Source of the DNA: Daejeonella sp.
Lineage (GTDB): Bacteria > Bacteroidota > Bacteroidia > Sphingobacteriales > Sphingobacteriaceae
Assembly: GCF_030684675.1 (NCBI RefSeq)
Contig: NZ_JAUXXZ010000008.1
Span: 1 to 36,803 of the forward strand
Direction of reading: 5' to 3'
Length of the DNA: 36,803 nt
Shown: positions 255-28,295 of the stretch, in pieces
Numbering within the stretch: position 1 is the first letter of the stretch
Layout of the letters: every line of letters begins with the position of its first letter
The notes under the pieces: generated by a model
Told to the model about the DNA's origin: nothing
The model's database searches: none
What the model saw: only the letters and a program-made list of their open reading frames with translations
Position numbers and translations under genes: made by a program

Positions 255-293
255 CTTGCAATTGATTAAGCTCCCGGATTAATCAATTGCAAG
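255..293. repeat. Perfect 15-bp inverted repeat (hairpin)
   Basis: Bases 255-269 and 279-293 are exact reverse complements around a 9-nt loop. There is no U-run on either side, so it is not a classical intrinsic terminator. It lies in a gene-free stretch (189-585). Apart from this hairpin and the terminator at 313-343, that stretch is AT-rich and shows nothing else I recognise. Confidence 0.55.
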
Positions 294-5285: not shown

Positions 5286-6929
5286 TTATAAAGGGATTTC
5301 TACAGTCTTTGTTCCACTCGTCGGACTACCTGTATTAATTGTCAGTTTACCTGAACCTTTTATCAGCCAGGATATGCTTTGGTTTCCCTGACCTTGAATC
5401 GCATCGATTAATTGGTTTTTGCGTCCACTGATAATTGTTTGATTCGCTTGCGGAATTACTTTAACAGATAGCTTCTTTACCCAATAGCTTCGTTCGCCAA
5501 CCTTGGTGTGGGTGGGTAAAATTCCTTTATTAAAAAGAGTGACTGTGACTCTGGTCAGGTCATTACCTAATTTCTCTTTTTTTATATTTGTGATATCAAT
5601 GGAAGGAGTATACTTGCTAAGTGCCAGAATAAAGTCGCTATGCTTTTTTACCAAATCTTCAACCAGCTTAAAGGGAGGATTTTTTAATACAAAAGGATCA
5701 ATTCCCCCAATTTCTACGGTTTGTCCGGGGAAATCAGGGTGTTCAATCTTTGTCCACTCTGTAAAATTGTCTTTTAGTCCCTGGCTATCGGCCCAACGGA
5801 GGTAATTTGCCGTCGGATCTTCAATTTTCAGATCCTTCACTTTTTTCGCTGTATCGGCTTTTGCCTTCGGTACCCACCATCCCGGCGTACTGAAACTATT
5901 ACGGCCGTAATGGAAATAAGCCCATTGAGCAAAATCACCCCCCTCTGAAGCACTTTTGGGAGCATCCTTTAAGCCAACTGTTTTAATATAAAGTTCGGAA
6001 ACCAGAGTATTTGCCTTTGCATCTGCTTCAAAATAGCCGGTAATGATGCGCTTTGAAATAGCCTGTGCATTAAAAGATACCGGTACTGAAAGGTTATTAT
6101 AGGGTCCGAATGTGATTACTGAATAAATATTAAACATCTCAAACAGGTTGTCGAGTAAAGTCCTGTTCTCAATTTCAGAGACCATGTGTTCTCCCGACCC
6201 CGGAATGAAATTCGGATAGTCATAACTCATATTCTTATTAAAATGTACCCCACCTTCAGCGTCTTCATTATAATTTCCATCCTTATCATTGTCGGTTCCT
6301 TCAGAAAAAAGCAGGTATTTACCTACTTCGCCTTTCGTTGGATCGGCAAGAATCATCGACCGGGGTTCTTCAGGGTTGATACGGTATTTTCCTGTTGGAT
6401 CTTCAACTCTGATCCAGCTTATTTTGCCATCTTTATCCAGGTCATCAAACCCATCTTCATTCAGCTTTCCATCGCGGTCCTCATCTGTAGCTTTTGCGTT
6501 TCCACTTCTTGCATAGCGGATTTGACTGAAGTATTGTTCCGTAGCATCCGGACTCATGTTCGGAAAAACATAAAATGTATTTTTCTCAAGAATATTCTTA
6601 ATACTATCCTGGGCAGAGTCCTTGAGTATTTTTTCCGCAAATCCCAAAGCCAGCTCAGTGCCCAGAAGGTGTGAACCTTCAACGCCTCCAACAATTGCAA
6701 GCGCCGGTTTTTGCCCAATGTTTCCGCTGCCAATGCTAAGCATCCAGATATCTTTTCCGCCTATGGTTTTGACAAGAGATTTAACTTTTACCAGTGATGG
6801 ATAGGTTTTAGCGAGGGAATTTATCCGCTCTGAAACCCGGGAGTTATTGCTGTAATCCTGTGCATTTAATTCTCCAAAAAAGAGAAAAATACACCACAGC
6901 AAAACTGAGGTTTTGTAAATTTTATTCAT
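5286..6929 (-). CDS. M14-like protein with degenerate zinc site (pseudoenzyme candidate)
   Basis: This 547-aa paralogue of the adjacent M14 carboxypeptidase has a signal peptide (about 1-23, ending LNAQ), Asp-rich calcium-type loops (DEDRDG, DLDKDG, DNDKDG) and a similar C-terminal domain. The catalytic residues are not conserved. Where the neighbour has HSNE, this protein has E84-G-S-H87, so His and Glu are exchanged. The third ligand His is Gly in my alignment (ITFGPYNN), and the catalytic Glu position is occupied by WW. It may be a non-catalytic binding partner or scaffold. It is the first gene of the operon, 36 nt upstream of the active paralogue. The alignment was done by eye. Confidence 0.85.
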   Translation of the reverse strand: MNKIYKTSVLLWCIFLFFGELNAQDYSNNSRVSERINSLAKTYPSLVKVKSLVKTIGGKDIWMLSIGSGNIGQKPALAIVGGVEGSHLLGTELALGFAEKILKDSAQDSIKNILEKNTFYVFPNMSPDATEQYFSQIRYARSGNAKATDEDRDGKLNEDGFDDLDKDGKISWIRVEDPTGKYRINPEEPRSMILADPTKGEVGKYLLFSEGTDNDKDGNYNEDAEGGVHFNKNMSYDYPNFIPGSGEHMVSEIENRTLLDNLFEMFNIYSVITFGPYNNLSVPVSFNAQAISKRIITGYFEADAKANTLVSELYIKTVGLKDAPKSASEGGDFAQWAYFHYGRNSFSTPGWWVPKAKADTAKKVKDLKIEDPTANYLRWADSQGLKDNFTEWTKIEHPDFPGQTVEIGGIDPFVLKNPPFKLVEDLVKKHSDFILALSKYTPSIDITNIKKEKLGNDLTRVTVTLFNKGILPTHTKVGERSYWVKKLSVKVIPQANQTIISGRKNQLIDAIQGQGNQSISWLIKGSGKLTINTGSPTSGTKTVEIPL

Positions 6930-13325: not shown

Positions 13326-16300
13326 TTATAAACCCATAAGGTATTGAAGTGTATAAACTGATTGATTATATTGATTGATAGCCTGGAGATAACTAAACCT
13401 TATTTCTGAATAGGTTCGTAATCCCTGTAAATATTCCACATAACCAATCTCTCCGTTCTGAAAGGCTATCTGAGATTGCTTAAGAATAAGGTTTGCATTT
13501 GGCAGTGCGCTTGATTTATAATATTCAATACTGCGTGAGTTTTTTAACAATTCCTGATAGGCTTTGTTGTACTGGCCCTGAAGATTAGTTTGAAAAAGGC
13601 TAAATTCACTTTCAGCAACCTGCTTTCCGATTTGTGCAGCCTTAATACGTGCTGAAAAAGGTTTAGCAAAAATTGGGATAGAAATACCCGCTTGTATACC
13701 CTGAAAACGCTTACCGCCGTTGAAATAAACATTCTGCCCGTTAACACTCTGACTGCCAATGATGGACTGATTAAAATATCCTACCGAAAAATCCGGGCCT
13801 AAACGTGCTTTTTCAAGACCGATCGATTTATCTGCAATTTCAATCTGCTGCCTGTATGAAGCAAGCAAAGGATTTCTTGCGATCATACTGTCAAGGACTA
13901 TAGCATTCCAATTTTCCGGGACAAACTGTTCTTTTGTGATCTCAATATTCTCCTGCGAGTTAAGAAGCCTTTGGAGTTCGGACGTATAAACTAAAATATC
14001 AGATTGATTTTTGCTCATTTGATTACGCACTTCATTATACTGTGTCTCAGCTGAAGTTTTTTCAAGCAGATTGGTTTCCCCGGTCTCGTATCGAAGTGCC
14101 GCAGCTTTCAGGAAGTTGCTGTAAACGGTGTCCTGGCTGAGATACAACTGTTGAAGAGCAATAAAATACGCAAGCTGGGTGTAGTTACTTTTGACCTGAT
14201 AGCTTAACTCGTTTTGAGTTATCGACAAGCCGATCTCTGCACCCCGGATCTGTGCATCGTAGAGACTACGCTGGCTTTTAAAAAGCCCTGGATTTGGAAT
14301 ACTTTGAGAAGCGCTGAAGTTATTATCCCTTTTTATCCCATTGATCTGTCCATATTGAACGTCGAAATTTGTTTTCCCCAAATCTCTTGAGCTTCCTCTT
14401 AATGCCTGTTGCTGATTAATCTGCAAGCCAGATGACGTGATAGCCCTGTTATTTTTAAGAGCTGTTTGTATCGCTTGTTGTAAGGTTATTGGAGAGCCTG
14501 ATACAGGCACCTGGGCTTTAGCTGCCGGAGCGATTAAAGTGATGCCGAGGATGAAGATGGCTACGGTAGCAGTAGGAATAGCTTTATTCACTTTTCTTTT
14601 AAAGCTTTCGAAATAGGTGTATAACACGGGTAAAACAATTAAGGTTAAAATAGTGGATGTTATCAAACCCCCAATGACGACGGTAGCCAGGGGCTTTTGA
14701 ACTTCCGCCCCAGCCGCAGAGGATAGAGCCATCGGTAAAAATCCTAAGGAGGCAACGGTTGCTGTCATAAGCACCGGTCTCAAACGGATAGCGGTTCCTT
14801 TAAGGACAATTTCATTTAATCCGTACTGATTGAGTTTTTTGAGCCGGTTAAATTCAGTAATAAGCACAATTCCGTTTAGCACCGCTACACCGAAAAGGGC
14901 AATAAAACCGACACCCGCCGAAATACTGAATGGCATTCCCCTTAGCAGAAGGGCAAAAATACCCCCGATGGCTGCCATTGGAATAGCTGAAAAGATAAGC
15001 ACAGACTGCTTAACGGAGCCAAAAGAAAAATACAATAGTAATAATATTAATAATAATGCTACGGGAACCGCAATAGAGAGCCTTTTTGTTGCCTCCTTCA
15101 GATTTTCAAACTGTCCGCCATAGGTGATAAAATATCCAGTCGGGAGTTTGATCTGTTGGTTGACCTTTAGCTGGATCTCTTCAACTACGCTGGCAATATC
15201 ACGTCCGCGAACGTTTAATCCTACGATAATGCGGCGTTGAGTATCTTCCCGCTGGATCTGATTAGGGCCAACCACGAACTCTACATCGGCAAGCTGGTCA
15301 AGTGGAATCTGGTTACCGTTAGAGGCAGTTACATAGACATTTTTTACATCTTCAATGTCCCGGCGGTTTTGAACTGACAAACGCACTACCATGTCATATC
15401 TTTGCTCGCCTTCATAAACTAACCCCGCCGACTGGCCCGCAAAAGCTGTATTCAATGCCTGATTAACAGTTTCTACACTTAATCCATACTGGGCAATTCG
15501 GTCACGGTTGATCCTTACTACGATTTGTGGCAAGCCCGTAGCCTGTTCCAGATATAAGTCTCGTGCCCCATCAACTGTCGAAACAATTTTTCCTATTTTT
15601 TGCGAGAGATCAGTTAATTGATTAAGATCGTCCCCGAAGATTTTAATACCTATATCCTGCCTTACACCTGATATAAGCTCGTTAGAACGTAATTGGATGG
15701 GTTGCGAAAATCCAAAACTAACACCCGGCACATCTTCCAAGGCTTCACCCATTAATTCTGCCAATTCTTCACGGTCATGGGTTGTTGTCCAGTCTTTCTT
15801 ATCTTTCAAGATTACCGTCAGATCCGTGGCCTCCATCGGCATTGGATCAGTTGGAATTTCAGCAGCGCCTATTTTCCCAATTACCTCTTTCACCTCTGGA
15901 AACCGTTCCACTAAGATTTTAGATGCCTGATTTATCTTATCAATAGATTGACTAAGAGAACTGCCCGTGAGTAATCTCGTTTCAACTGCAAAATCACCTT
16001 CTTCCAGCGTGGGGATAAATTCGCCTCCCATACGGGTAAAAACAAAAATGCTGACTGCCAGCAATGCTACTGATGAGATAACCACGAGCTTACGCCTGCG
16101 TAAAGCCGCATGTATCATCGGGCTATATTTTCTTTGAAAGAAATCCATCATTCGATCAGAGAAATTCTTTTTTTGAGAGAGGTTTTTACTAAGAAACAAG
16201 GATGATACCATTGGGACGTAAGTCAGGGAGAGGATAAATGCACCCAGAATAGCAAACGATACTGTTTGAGCCATCGGCCCGAACATTTTTCCTTCAATAC

Positions 16301-17711
16301 CGACCAGAGCCAGGATCGGCAGGTAAACGATTAAAATGATGATTTGACCAAAGGCGGCTGCACTCATCATCCGGACAGAAGATTTCTCCACCTGTTCATC
16401 CATTTCGGGCTGAGTAAAAGCCCTGCCTAGTTTATTACCGGCAAGGGTGTGCATAGTTGCTTCTACAATAATCACAGCCCCATCGACAATCAGACCAAAA
16501 TCTATCGCTCCAAGGCTCATTAAGTTTCCCGATACACCAAACAAATTCATCAGAGAAATAGCGAAAAGCATGGCAAGTGGTATGACCGAGGCTACGACCA
16601 GACCAGCCCTTAAATTTCCGAGGAACAAAACCAATACAAAAATAACGATCAAAGCGCCCTCAATCAGATTTGTAGCAACTGTTCCCATTGCTCTGTCCAC
16701 TAAAGCACTTCGGTCAAGAAACGGCTCGATAGTGACCCCTTCCGGCAAGGTTTGAGTGATGCGCTCTATTTTTGCTTTAACATCCTTAACAACATTGTTA
16801 GCGTTAGCTCCTTTTAGCATCATTACAATACCACCTACAGCTTCTCCCTGCCCTTCACGAGTAGCGCGGGTAAGCGCACCATACCGAATGGAGTTTCCGA
16901 TCTGGACGGTAGCAATATCACGAATTAATACAGGTATGCCATTTGTATTATTCTTAACGACGATTTTGTTTATGTCATCAAGACCGCCAACTAAGCCTTC
17001 ACTACGTATAAAATATGCGTTCGGCTTTTTATCAATATAAGCCCCTCCAGTATTCTGGTTATTCTGTGCCAGGGAATTAAAAACATCACTGATACTTAAG
17101 TTGAAACTTCGTAATTTATCCGGATCTAACGCAATTTCGTATTGTTTTAATAAGCCGCCAAAGCTATTCACTTCTGCAATGCCGGGGGTGCCTAAAAGTT
17201 GTTTACGAACGATCCAGTCCTGGATGCTTCTCAATTCACGGGCACCAAATTTCTTCTCAAAACCCGGTTTTGCATGAATTACATACTGGTATATTTCACC
17301 TAATCCTGTGGATATGGGCGAGATTTCAGGATTACCCAGATCTCCTGGTATATTGTTTTTTGCTTCGGCCAGCTTTTCGTTAACCTGCTGCCGGGCCCAG
17401 TAAATGTCCACATCGTCATGGAATACGATAGTTACTACGGAAAGACCAAAACGGGAAAGCGACCGAACCTGTTGAATTTCAGGTATGGTAGACATGGTTT
17501 GCTCAACAGGATAGGAGATTAAACGCTCCACTTCCTGAGTTGCCAGTGATGGACTCAAGGTTATAACCTGCACCTGATTGTTTGTAATATCCGGTACAGC
17601 ATCTATAGGTAACTGTCTGAGGGAATATATCCCCCAGGCGATCAGCGCCAGTGTAAACAGGCCAATAACTAGCTTGTTGTGTATGGAAAACTGAATAATT
17701 TTTTTCAGCAT
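13326..17711 (-). CDS. CusA/CzcA heavy-metal RND pump fused to a TolC-like outer-membrane factor
   Basis: This 1461-aa protein has two parts. Residues 1 to about 1045 form an HME-RND proton antiporter, with a first TM near 12-30, docking and porter regions, and the TM4 acidic motif DFGLIVDGAVIIVEA. Residues 1067-1461 form a TolC/CusC-type outer-membrane efflux domain with two long helical repeats. Between them, about 1046-1066 is a signal-peptide-like helix (ATVAIFILGITLIAPAAKAQ) with an AKA-Q cleavage-type end. This suggests the channel half may be cut free and exported separately. Fused CusA-TolC genes are known in Bacteroidota. It exports Cu/Ag or Zn/Co/Cd; the substrate cannot be read from sequence. 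Confidence 0.93.
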   Translation of the reverse strand: MLKKIIQFSIHNKLVIGLFTLALIAWGIYSLRQLPIDAVPDITNNQVQVITLSPSLATQEVERLISYPVEQTMSTIPEIQQVRSLSRFGLSVVTIVFHDDVDIYWARQQVNEKLAEAKNNIPGDLGNPEISPISTGLGEIYQYVIHAKPGFEKKFGARELRSIQDWIVRKQLLGTPGIAEVNSFGGLLKQYEIALDPDKLRSFNLSISDVFNSLAQNNQNTGGAYIDKKPNAYFIRSEGLVGGLDDINKIVVKNNTNGIPVLIRDIATVQIGNSIRYGALTRATREGQGEAVGGIVMMLKGANANNVVKDVKAKIERITQTLPEGVTIEPFLDRSALVDRAMGTVATNLIEGALIVIFVLVLFLGNLRAGLVVASVIPLAMLFAISLMNLFGVSGNLMSLGAIDFGLIVDGAVIIVEATMHTLAGNKLGRAFTQPEMDEQVEKSSVRMMSAAAFGQIIILIVYLPILALVGIEGKMFGPMAQTVSFAILGAFILSLTYVPMVSSLFLSKNLSQKKNFSDRMMDFFQRKYSPMIHAALRRRKLVVISSVALLAVSIFVFTRMGGEFIPTLEEGDFAVETRLLTGSSLSQSIDKINQASKILVERFPEVKEVIGKIGAAEIPTDPMPMEATDLTVILKDKKDWTTTHDREELAELMGEALEDVPGVSFGFSQPIQLRSNELISGVRQDIGIKIFGDDLNQLTDLSQKIGKIVSTVDGARDLYLEQATGLPQIVVRINRDRIAQYGLSVETVNQALNTAFAGQSAGLVYEGEQRYDMVVRLSVQNRRDIEDVKNVYVTASNGNQIPLDQLADVEFVVGPNQIQREDTQRRIIVGLNVRGRDIASVVEEIQLKVNQQIKLPTGYFITYGGQFENLKEATKRLSIAVPVALLLILLLLYFSFGSVKQSVLIFSAIPMAAIGGIFALLLRGMPFSISAGVGFIALFGVAVLNGIVLITEFNRLKKLNQYGLNEIVLKGTAIRLRPVLMTATVASLGFLPMALSSAAGAEVQKPLATVVIGGLITSTILTLIVLPVLYTYFESFKRKVNKAIPTATVAIFILGITLIAPAAKAQVPVSGSPITLQQAIQTALKNNRAITSSGLQINQQQALRGSSRDLGKTNFDVQYGQINGIKRDNNFSASQSIPNPGLFKSQRSLYDAQIRGAEIGLSITQNELSYQVKSNYTQLAYFIALQQLYLSQDTVYSNFLKAAALRYETGETNLLEKTSAETQYNEVRNQMSKNQSDILVYTSELQRLLNSQENIEITKEQFVPENWNAIVLDSMIARNPLLASYRQQIEIADKSIGLEKARLGPDFSVGYFNQSIIGSQSVNGQNVYFNGGKRFQGIQAGISIPIFAKPFSARIKAAQIGKQVAESEFSLFQTNLQGQYNKAYQELLKNSRSIEYYKSSALPNANLILKQSQIAFQNGEIGYVEYLQGLRTYSEIRFSYLQAINQYNQSVYTLQYLMGL

Positions 17712-26306: not shown

Positions 26307-26969
26307 CTAGTAATTTATTACCACCAAGATACCGTTAGTTACCCTGCTGCTAACAATTATCTCTTTTTTTGATTTTAATTGCAGGATATAGCTTTGGTCA
26401 AATTCTTCTATCGACCCGATCTTGATGGTATCTCCCAAAGCCAGTCCGATCTTGTCCAGGTAAGAGAGGAACGCGGTTGAATGATCTGTTATTCCTGCGA
26501 ACCTGGCTTTACTGCCTGCTTTTAGTTTTGACAACAGAACAGCTTCAGATTTCATGAACTCACCATTCTCATCCGGGATAGGATCCCCATGCGGATCGGC
26601 TTTCGGATATCCCAAAAAACTATCAAGGCGGTTAATCAGATCTTCACTTTGTACATGCTCAAGTTGTTCTGCTATTTCATGAACTTCATCCCAGCCGAAT
26701 TCCAGTTTGCTGACAAGAAATACCTCCCAAAGTCTGTGTCTTCGAATAATTCCTACCGCACTTTTTCTTCCTTTTCCCGTTAACTTAAATCCTTTTGATT
26801 TCTCGTAGAGAATCCATTTTCTTTCAGACATTTTCTTAAGCATGTCCGTTACAGTTGCTGAATGGATAGCCAGAGCTTTAGCAAGGTCGGTATTATTAAC
26901 CCTTCCGCCTGTTTTCTCTTCAAGTTTATAGATCGCTTTAAGATAGTTCTCCTCGGTAAATGAATGCAT
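26307..26969 (-). CDS. DtxR/MntR family metal-dependent regulator
   Basis: This 220-aa protein has an N-terminal winged helix (about 1-65: TEENYLKAIYKLEE, then ATVTDMLKKMSER), a dimerisation and metal-binding domain (HRLWEVFL, WDEVHEIAEQLEH) and a C-terminal SH3-like FeoA domain (about 148-220). Such regulators bind DNA with Mn(II) or Fe(II). I chose the ATG at 26969 because the family typically starts MHSFTEENYL. A longer reading to 27014 runs into the 60-bp palindrome. It is divergent from the di-haem oxidoreductase operon. The palindrome between them is its obvious operator. Confidence 0.9.
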   Translation of the reverse strand: MHSFTEENYLKAIYKLEEKTGGRVNNTDLAKALAIHSATVTDMLKKMSERKWILYEKSKGFKLTGKGRKSAVGIIRRHRLWEVFLVSKLEFGWDEVHEIAEQLEHVQSEDLINRLDSFLGYPKADPHGDPIPDENGEFMKSEAVLLSKLKAGSKARFAGITDHSTAFLSYLDKIGLALGDTIKIGSIEEFDQSYILQLKSKKEIIVSSRVTNGILVVINY

Positions 26970-26996
26970 TGAATTCCGTTTCAAGCAAGATACTAA

Positions 26997-27056
26997 ATAA
27001 GATAAACAAAACATAATTTTTAGATATATCTAAAAATTATGTTTTGTTTATCTTAT
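26997..27056. promoter_or_regulatory. Perfect 60-bp palindrome between divergent promoters
   Basis: Every base pair from 26997/27056 inward to the centre at 27026/27027 is complementary (30 bp per arm, no mismatch and no loop). The central segment, tttagatatatctaaa, is a 16-bp DtxR-box-like motif. Each arm carries a caaaac/gttttg block that could supply the -33 TTTG of both divergent promoters. It sits between the dtxR-like gene (start 26969) and the di-haem oxidoreductase gene (start 27096). Confidence 0.85.
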
Positions 27057-27061
27057 ATTTA

Positions 27062-27069
27062 TATCTTTG
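27062..27069 (+). promoter_or_regulatory. -7 element of the di-haem oxidoreductase operon
   Basis: TATCTTTG matches TAnnTTTG exactly and lies 5 bp past the palindrome edge and 26 nt before the ATG. The nearest TTTG (27043-27046, inside the palindrome) is 15 bp upstream, which is shorter than consensus. Confidence 0.55.
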
Positions 27070-27095
27070 TCAATCAAATTTAACATTCTGCGGTA

Positions 27096-28295
27096 ATGCA
27101 AAACAAGTTTATTGTCCTTAGTCTCATTGCATGTCTCATCATTGCAGGTACGTCCTGTGAAAAAACTATCCCGGGCGCTCCAGAAGATGACCAGATTCTG
27201 GATGGCCCAATCGAAGGCTTAACACCTGAACAAAATCGAATTTTCCTAAATGGCGATGTGGCCTTTAATGGGGATGTATTTTCTGCAGCTAATGGGCTGG
27301 GACCCATGTTTGTTGCGAATTCCTGCGGAAGCTGCCATGCAGGAGATGGCAAAGGCCATCCTTTTACAACCTTAACACGTTTTGGCCAAAGCGATACATT
27401 GGGTAACAAATTTTTGATGCAAGGCGGGCCGCAGTTGCAAAACAGGGCTATACCTGGTTATCAACCAGAAAAAATTCCTGCTGGAGCTACATTTTCGAAT
27501 TTTACGCCTCCGGCTAATACTGGACTTGGGTTTTTCGAAGCTATATCGGATGCAACAATTATGGCCATGGCAGACGTAAACGATGCCAATGGGGATGGTA
27601 TTTCAGGAAGACCGAACTGGATAACTATCCCACAATATTCGGAGCTTCGTCCAGGGACTATTGTCCGGAACGGCAAATATATCGGGCGCTTTGGTAAAAA
27701 AGCAGCCGTTTATGATCTGTTACAGCAAACGGCAAATGCTTATAATCAGGATATGGGTATAACCTCAACTTACGAGCACTTTTCAACTTACAAAAATCAG
27801 GATATTGAGCCTGAAATATCGAACCAGAAAGTTCTGGATGTTGTATTCTATCTCAAAACACTAAAAGCGCCGGTACAAAGAGACCAGAATAATCCCGATG
27901 TAATTTCAGGCAAACAGGTGTTCCTGAATATTTCCTGTGGAAAATGCCATACACCGCAATTACAAACAGAGCCATCCAGTATAGCTGCCTTGTCAAATAA
28001 AACCTTTGCACCATACACAGACTTCCTGTTACATGACCTGGGACCAGCACTCGATGATAAATATACCGAAGGCACAGCATTGACACCCGAATGGCGAACA
28101 CCCGCTTTATGGGGTTTAGGCTTATCTAAAAATTCTCAGGGAGGTGAATATCATCTTTTACATGATGGAAGAGCAAAAAGTATTGAACAAGCTGTACTAA
28201 TGCATGGCGGCGAGGCTGAGCAGAGCAAAAATAAGTTTCAGCAGCTCCCATCAAGCGAGAAAACCAAACTCCTTAAGTTCCTTGAATCTTTATAA
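27096..28295 (+). CDS. Di-haem oxidoreductase family lipoprotein (DHOR, DUF1111)
   Basis: This 399-aa lipoprotein (lipobox ending AGTSC, Cys21) carries two haem-c sites, Cys77-x2-Cys80-His81 and Cys281-x2-Cys284-His285, in the order seen in the di-haem oxidoreductase family (formerly DUF1111). A calcium-like loop DVNDANGDGISG lies near 160-171. Family members are periplasmic or outer-membrane electron-transfer proteins, often in iron-regulated loci with imelysin. Here the partners are a Rieske protein and a porin under a DtxR-type regulator. Exact substrate is unknown. Confidence 0.88.
   Translation: MQNKFIVLSLIACLIIAGTSCEKTIPGAPEDDQILDGPIEGLTPEQNRIFLNGDVAFNGDVFSAANGLGPMFVANSCGSCHAGDGKGHPFTTLTRFGQSDTLGNKFLMQGGPQLQNRAIPGYQPEKIPAGATFSNFTPPANTGLGFFEAISDATIMAMADVNDANGDGISGRPNWITIPQYSELRPGTIVRNGKYIGRFGKKAAVYDLLQQTANAYNQDMGITSTYEHFSTYKNQDIEPEISNQKVLDVVFYLKTLKAPVQRDQNNPDVISGKQVFLNISCGKCHTPQLQTEPSSIAALSNKTFAPYTDFLLHDLGPALDDKYTEGTALTPEWRTPALWGLGLSKNSQGGEYHLLHDGRAKSIEQAVLMHGGEAEQSKNKFQQLPSSEKTKLLKFLESL

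Follow-up and report, generated by a model that had tools for sequence, protein, structure and literature searches.

A perfect 60-bp palindrome lies between the gene for a DtxR-type regulator and the divergent operon of a DHOR-family di-haem protein in the genome of Daejeonella sp., and its centre is an ordinary DtxR/MntR-type box whose predicted regulatory role is well supported by comparison with related loci. Operators of this kind are known, but the extension is unusual and specific to the lineage. A long palindrome at a promoter is often taken to mean that symmetric binding of a protein has been selected. We lean towards a different account of this one, in which the palindrome is probably the operator of a metal repressor and template switching would have improved the pairing of its near-palindromic arms on more than one occasion. 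The window, as the term is used below, is the whole stretch of DNA that was analysed, 36,803 nucleotides of contig NZ_JAUXXZ010000008.1 (assembly GCF_030684675.1). The palindrome and its neighbours are as follows, with offsets counted from the centre and with G006 and G014 as two genomes of the same genus:

26997-27056, no strand: 60-bp perfect palindrome, 30-bp arms, no spacer
26997-27007, no strand: outer left arm (offsets 20-30), all paired in the window, 3 of 11 offsets paired in the same-genus loci
27046-27056, no strand: outer right arm (offsets 20-30), all paired in the window, 3 of 11 offsets paired in the same-genus loci
27008-27045, no strand: inner 38 bp, its arms symmetric also in G006 and G014 despite five mirrored differences per arm, its centre unpaired in those two genomes
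27019-27034, no strand: core DtxR/MntR-type box TTTAGATATATCTAAA (TTAGA-N4-TCTAA), a kind of word also found upstream of the second dtxR gene and of a TonB-receptor gene of this genome, and at DHOR loci
26307-26969, minus strand: DtxR/MntR-type regulator P0001, 220 aa, with PF01325, PF02742 and FeoA domains
27096-28295, plus strand: DHOR-family di-haem protein P0002, 399 aa, PF06537
28204-28746, plus strand: Rieske-domain protein, PF00355
28743-29969, plus strand: conserved third gene, 408 aa, outer-membrane-barrel-like by eye only

An earlier note on this DNA had described thirty base pairs per arm without error or loop, and the description is exact. An inverted-repeat search of the window returned arms at 26997-27026 and 27027-27056, 30 nt each, with 100% complementarity and a spacer of 0, and a direct check confirmed that the 60-mer equals its own reverse complement. 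With the base composition of the 126-bp intergenic stretch, for which a random pair is complementary with p = 0.331, 30 such pairs are expected by chance at 4e-15 per position, or about 2e-8 per 4.25-Mb genome. Spacerless perfect palindromes with arms of at least 11 numbered two in a sample of 401,076 bases, which comprised the window and 20 other stretches and covered about 9% of the same genome, namely that of the window, with arms of 30, and one with arms of 13. The palindrome is single-copy, its 34-nt half matching nowhere else in the genome at up to three mismatches. Elsewhere in the genome, a spacerless 26-nt palindrome (L164:602-627, on G000:C7) sits directly upstream of a GIY-YIG gene and has arms that resemble the half-site words of the window in inverted order, and near the contig start two more perfect inverted repeats with 15-nt arms occupy window positions 255-293 and 313-343, with spacers of 9 and 1 nt.

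The genes flanking the palindrome had been named as those of a DtxR-type regulator and of a DHOR-Rieske-porin operon. The regulator, the DHOR protein and the Rieske protein all carry the corresponding domains, but the "porin" was not confirmed, the third protein (408 aa) being without a match in Pfam at 0.001 and in NCBIfam at 0.01. Its gene is 93-94% identical in both same-genus loci. The regulator matches PF01325 (E 1.8e-15) and PF02742 (E 6.4e-31) and has a C-terminal FeoA domain (1.7e-8), as is typical of the DtxR/MntR family; against the NCBIfam equivalogs its best score was 146 bits, with a cut-off of 350. Its PDB matches include ScaR, SloR, IdeR, MntR and DtxR, and its AEQLEH aligns with AEVLEH of ScaR. 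Glutamate in place of Cys102 of DtxR is a feature of Mn-type primary sites, which prefer Mn over Fe, and the regulator of the window may have a site of this type. For the DHOR protein, no PDB relatives were found at 0.01. Farther along the operon come an HYC_CC_PP-like gene (27.6 bits, just below the cut-off of 28), two DUF3347 genes, a haem-binding-domain gene and a multicopper-oxidase gene, and the gene order of the locus is preserved in G006 and G014. That their shared genus is probably Daejeonella is also suggested by two more of its members: G001 carries a 90-nt site identical to the one of L030 (D. lutea), and the DtxR protein of G002 is identical to the one of L013 (D. oryzae).

The genome has a second DtxR-type gene, linked to an Nramp gene. 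In a tree, the regulator of the window groups with its same-genus partners in a separate clade that excludes the Nramp-linked copy (support 98/98). The recognition regions of the two are nevertheless nearly identical (SATVTDMLKKM in the window regulator, AASVTDMLKKL in the Nramp-linked copy), and the two proteins may therefore recognise one and the same core. G014 contains a further, truncated version of the locus (L172, on G014:C9, about 5779-6900). Its DtxR-type gene, for which the match starts at residue 19 and which is 66% identical to that of the window, directly adjoins the C-terminal portion of the third gene of the operon and clusters with the G006 copy in the tree; DHOR and Rieske matches are absent from the 12-kb stretch. 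Elsewhere in the window, one long ORF (13326-17711) fuses an AcrB-type RND pump (PF00873) to an outer-membrane efflux protein domain (PF02321).

The resemblance of the palindrome's centre to a metalloregulator box, which the earlier note had pointed out, is borne out by where the same DtxR/MntR-type word occurs. The word TTTAGATTAATCTAAA is found 33 bp upstream of the second dtxR of the genome (C51:45900), which is followed by an Nramp-Usp gene, and again in an intergenic position upstream of a TonB-receptor gene (C51:40460). As a bare pattern, TTTAG-N6-CTAAA is present at 10 places in the genome, compared with 26 for the reversed control, and because it is the rarer of the two it is meaningful only by position. 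Judged by position, TTAG-N6-CTAA stands within 200 bp upstream in 27 of 33 DHOR loci, where 0.26 would be expected from dinucleotide shuffles; the six loci that lack it are L111 and L121-L125. Thirty of these loci came from a search for DHOR (30 of 301 genomes), and three (L009, L018 and L075) came from a search for DtxR and have a DtxR gene by selection, so that the divergent DtxR gene found within 400 bp in 12 of the 33 loci is better read as 9 of the 30 loci found through DHOR.

The core consists of two TTAG/CTAA half-sites with 6 bp between them, which is the arrangement of a one-dimer operator of the DtxR/IdeR type, and it has the location of such operators, in front of the regulator gene or of metal genes. 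The suggestion that the long site binds several dimers finds no such footing, since the whole 60 bp contain a single copy of each canonical half-site, TTAG and CTAA, and none in addition in the arms, and the 60 bp do not contain the two-dimer 19-bp form with its four overlapping CCTAA-type motifs. A further box, TTTAGGCTTATCTAAA, inside the DHOR gene (28115-28130) is absent from both same-genus orthologues and was treated as chance. In another genus (g14), the DHOR upstream regions L101-L104 and L106-L108 have four half-sites in the order CTAAA-N6-TTTAG-N6-CTAAA-N6-TTTAG, at 11-bp steps, which suggests operators with room for more than one dimer.

Three promoter-like words surround the palindrome:

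27062-27069, plus strand: -7-like word TATCTTTG (TAnnTTTG) of the putative DHOR promoter, matched by a word in each of the same-genus loci (G006 and G014)
26986-26992, minus strand: incomplete and weak -7-like word TATCTTG toward dtxR
27075-27082, minus strand: complete TAnnTTTG word TAAATTTG toward dtxR, beyond the far side of the palindrome and absent in both same-genus loci

The Bacteroides -7 consensus is TAnnTTTG; for B. fragilis a TTTG at -33 has been deduced as well, whereas attempts to identify one in Flavobacterium johnsoniae did not succeed (PMC7366714). The palindrome does have TTTG on both sides, as had been noticed (27043-27046 on the plus strand, 27010-27007 on the minus strand), but its proposed role as the -33 element of both divergent promoters is doubtful. 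Only 15 bp on the plus strand, and 14 bp on the minus strand, where the word is incomplete, separate it from the -7-like words, and the plus-strand distance from centre to centre is about 21 bp, short of the roughly 26 bp expected of elements called -33 and -7. The layout, with the box between the DtxR-type gene and the divergent DHOR operon, fits the related proposal that one symmetrical site could control both directions. We infer that the adjacent Mn/Fe-type repressor of the DtxR family would bind the centre as its operator, and that, with metal in good supply, it would most likely shut down both the DHOR-Rieske operon on the other side and the gene that encodes it.

The orthologous space in G006 and G014 contains a 38-nt element with 16-nt perfect arms and a 6-nt unpaired centre, and the intergenic length there is 122 and 119 bp, compared with 126 bp in the window. 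Symmetric runs were counted over 27 DHOR-side boxes as offsets from the centre, with the first three ignored. The window alone is symmetric to offset 30. Six boxes reach 19, namely those of the same-genus loci L004 and L005 and of L101-L104 in one other genus, where the arm sequence differs from that of the window; L118 alone reaches 14, and the remaining 19 boxes, including L009, L018, L075, L099 and L100, reach 11 or less. No other locus examined has the full 60 bp. The earlier note had reasoned that conservation of such a long palindrome would imply selection, and had proposed asking whether relatives keep only the core or the whole length. The outcome that it named as a refutation, a short core kept without the long arms, is seen in the five loci just named, and the same-genus loci go half way, keeping 38 nt; since the palindrome is not conserved over its entire length, there is no need to assume that all of it is under selection.

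In 399 genomes of the family, the extended architecture AAAAC-N6-TTTAG-N6-CTAAA-N6-GTTTT was found with zero mismatches only in the window genome, G006 and G014 among the matches listed. With up to two mismatches, 78 of the 399 genomes had a match, but many of these look like terminators or coding sequence and the reversed control matches many genomes too, and only the three listed zero-mismatch cases are used here. A set of DtxR-box sites was also assembled, with 133 sites reducing to 107 distinct ones, ten duplicate or partial loci omitted, and 12 upstream regions having no box in 220 bp. Symmetric runs of at least 14 were present at 18 of the 107 sites, compared with 2.8 when arms were swapped between sites, although these long-armed sites are not independent (seven of the 18 are Spirosoma-type relatives); without the three focal loci the figures were 15 of 104 and 2.8. 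The per-offset excess of symmetry outside the core is small, with none at offsets 9 and 10 and 0.57 compared with 0.39 at offset 15.

The two arms seem to have changed in parallel. Between the window and the same-genus loci, offsets 4-9 and 15-19 are identical, and offsets 10-14, five adjacent positions, differ on both arms, with every change mirrored by its complement. Farther out, at offsets 20-30, pairing is 11 of 11 in the window and 3 of 11 in the relatives. Over offsets 9-20, comparison of the window with L004 and L005 gives six changed pairs, of which five are mirrored and one is broken; the flanks of L004 and L005 are 95% identical, so the two count as one independent comparison. Over all 30 offsets, 17 pairs have changed and six are mirrored, the other 11 being pairs that are unpaired in the relatives. 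A baseline was drawn from sites of the same query gene only, with the three focal loci left out. For 242 other site pairs with flank identity of at least 54%, 79 of 1,306 changed pairs at offsets 9-20 were mirrored; the count was 22 of 300 in the 69 site pairs where one site had a run of at least 14, and 2 of 58 in the 35 where both had runs of at least 12. Since mirrored changes are this rare in other long-armed operators, a concerted process acting on the arms is not general.

A protein-binding site accounts for the core, but not readily for arm bases that change and yet stay complementary. Template switching at quasipalindromes is known to give more perfect repeats (PMC7202029) and can produce multi-base compensatory changes (PMC8794818). 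At the present operator, a polymerase stalled during replication would fold back and copy one arm into the other. The arm sequence would then drift while symmetry stays, the arms would not be further canonical copies of the operator, and the 60 bp of the window would represent the most complete correction. As expected for a template-switch product, the repeat is imperfect in the relatives, perfect in the window, and located in a spacer of near-equal length. The apparent direction of copying differs between the centre and the outer arm, probably because more than one event was involved, and the five substitutions could reflect fewer events if gaps are allowed. Template switching would be the simplest account of the arms, on the strength of one independent comparison. 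That this comparison is single counts against the overall explanation, as do the DHOR loci that lack a box (6 of 33) and the bare pattern falling below its reversed control.

The best surviving alternative, possible in our judgment but unlikely, is that the arms are functional protein-binding DNA: a dimer would nucleate on the core, and more dimers would spread along degenerate sites in the arms to the -7 regions. This idea is kept alive by the distance from the core to the DHOR -7 word, which is 27 nt in the window and in G006 and G014, with the right arm filling most of the gap, compared with 6-7 nt in L009 and L018. Either the arms have a part to play, or RNA polymerase may be blocked in another way at this operator. 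Arrays do exist in the family, as in the g14 operators described above, and IdeR reads DNA shape more than bases (PMC8464063). The single TTAG and single CTAA in the 60 bp speak against spreading, and so does the fact that five of the six offsets between the core and GTTTT (offsets 9-14) have changed among the relatives, where a base-specific site would resist change.

Selection for pairing itself strikes us as improbable. Here the AT-rich palindrome would extrude as a cruciform, or form an RNA hairpin in the dtxR transcript, and act as a switch together with the repressor. Such selection would explain why symmetry was retained though the arm sequence changed, and the single-stranded DNA fold of the palindrome is strong (-25.2 kcal/mol, z -11.65). 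Cruciform-capable inverted repeats at promoters are also discussed in PMC3969353. If the minus-strand TAnnTTTG word at 27082-27075 is used, the dtxR transcript could contain the palindrome, and a role at the DNA level alone then becomes harder to claim; that word, however, is the one missing from both same-genus loci, and the short runs of 19 of the 27 DHOR-side boxes also count against selected pairing. The same low probability attaches to a fuller version in which base pairing of the arms, rather than their sequence, is maintained in the lineage, the arms co-evolve, and supercoiling-driven extrusion competes with repressor binding at one divergent promoter.

A recent inverted duplication that inserted the second arm, the alternative offered in the earlier note, is very unlikely. 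It would explain why the arms are perfectly identical, but it should have added about 30 bp, whereas the intergenic lengths are near-equal and both sides align with the relatives, as fits copying in place; moreover, the relatives already own the 38-nt symmetric element. Least likely of all is an artefact of assembly or amplification in this 84-contig draft genome, which the presence of the 60-bp form in one genome only might suggest, but on either side synteny and length agree with those of two other genomes, each of which has its own shorter symmetric element.

With template switching at a metal-repressor operator as the favoured explanation, what is conserved is encoded in the core, and the arms look like the outcome of mutation biased towards symmetry. 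If this is true, the length and perfection of an operator palindrome would be a poor guide to its footprint, and compensatory changes alone would be no proof of a selected hairpin. The comparison also connects the DHOR-Rieske operons of this Bacteroidota family with a DtxR/MntR-type box, a hint of a role in iron or manganese homeostasis. Among the papers listed, judged by titles and the openings of abstracts, none dealt with the operators of DtxR proteins in this family of bacteria or with operators altered by template switching.

The closest known operators are those of IdeR, for which the part of PMC8464063 considered here gives a one-dimer consensus, TTAGGNNNNCCTAA, spanning a 14-bp site, as well as a 19-bp two-dimer consensus. 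The core of the window palindrome has two half-sites at the same spacing and in the same geometry as the one-dimer site, beside a DtxR-family gene, and it matches 8 of the 10 specified bases of a consensus that comes from Actinobacteria (PMC8464063). It differs from the IdeR sites described there in having A/T rather than G/C at the inner base of each half-site, and the four-motif arrangement of the two-dimer site is missing from the palindrome. The symmetry also runs 22 bp past the 16-bp core on each side, in contrast to DtxR, IdeR and MntR operators as so described.

In its arms, the palindrome resembles the quasipalindrome corrections reported in PMC7202029 and PMC8794818, in that a near-perfect inverted repeat would have turned perfect with several mirrored changes and little change in length. 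The cases reported there concern lacZ reporters or RNA genes, whereas the repeat of the window surrounds a predicted transcription-factor site. An inverted repeat elsewhere in the Bacteroidota is also long and also precedes an operon, and a regulatory role has been proposed for it. That repeat, with its 8 mismatches, has been proposed to fold into a stem-loop and is tied to an HU protein, whereas the palindrome of the window has neither spacer nor mismatch and has a DtxR-type box at its centre.
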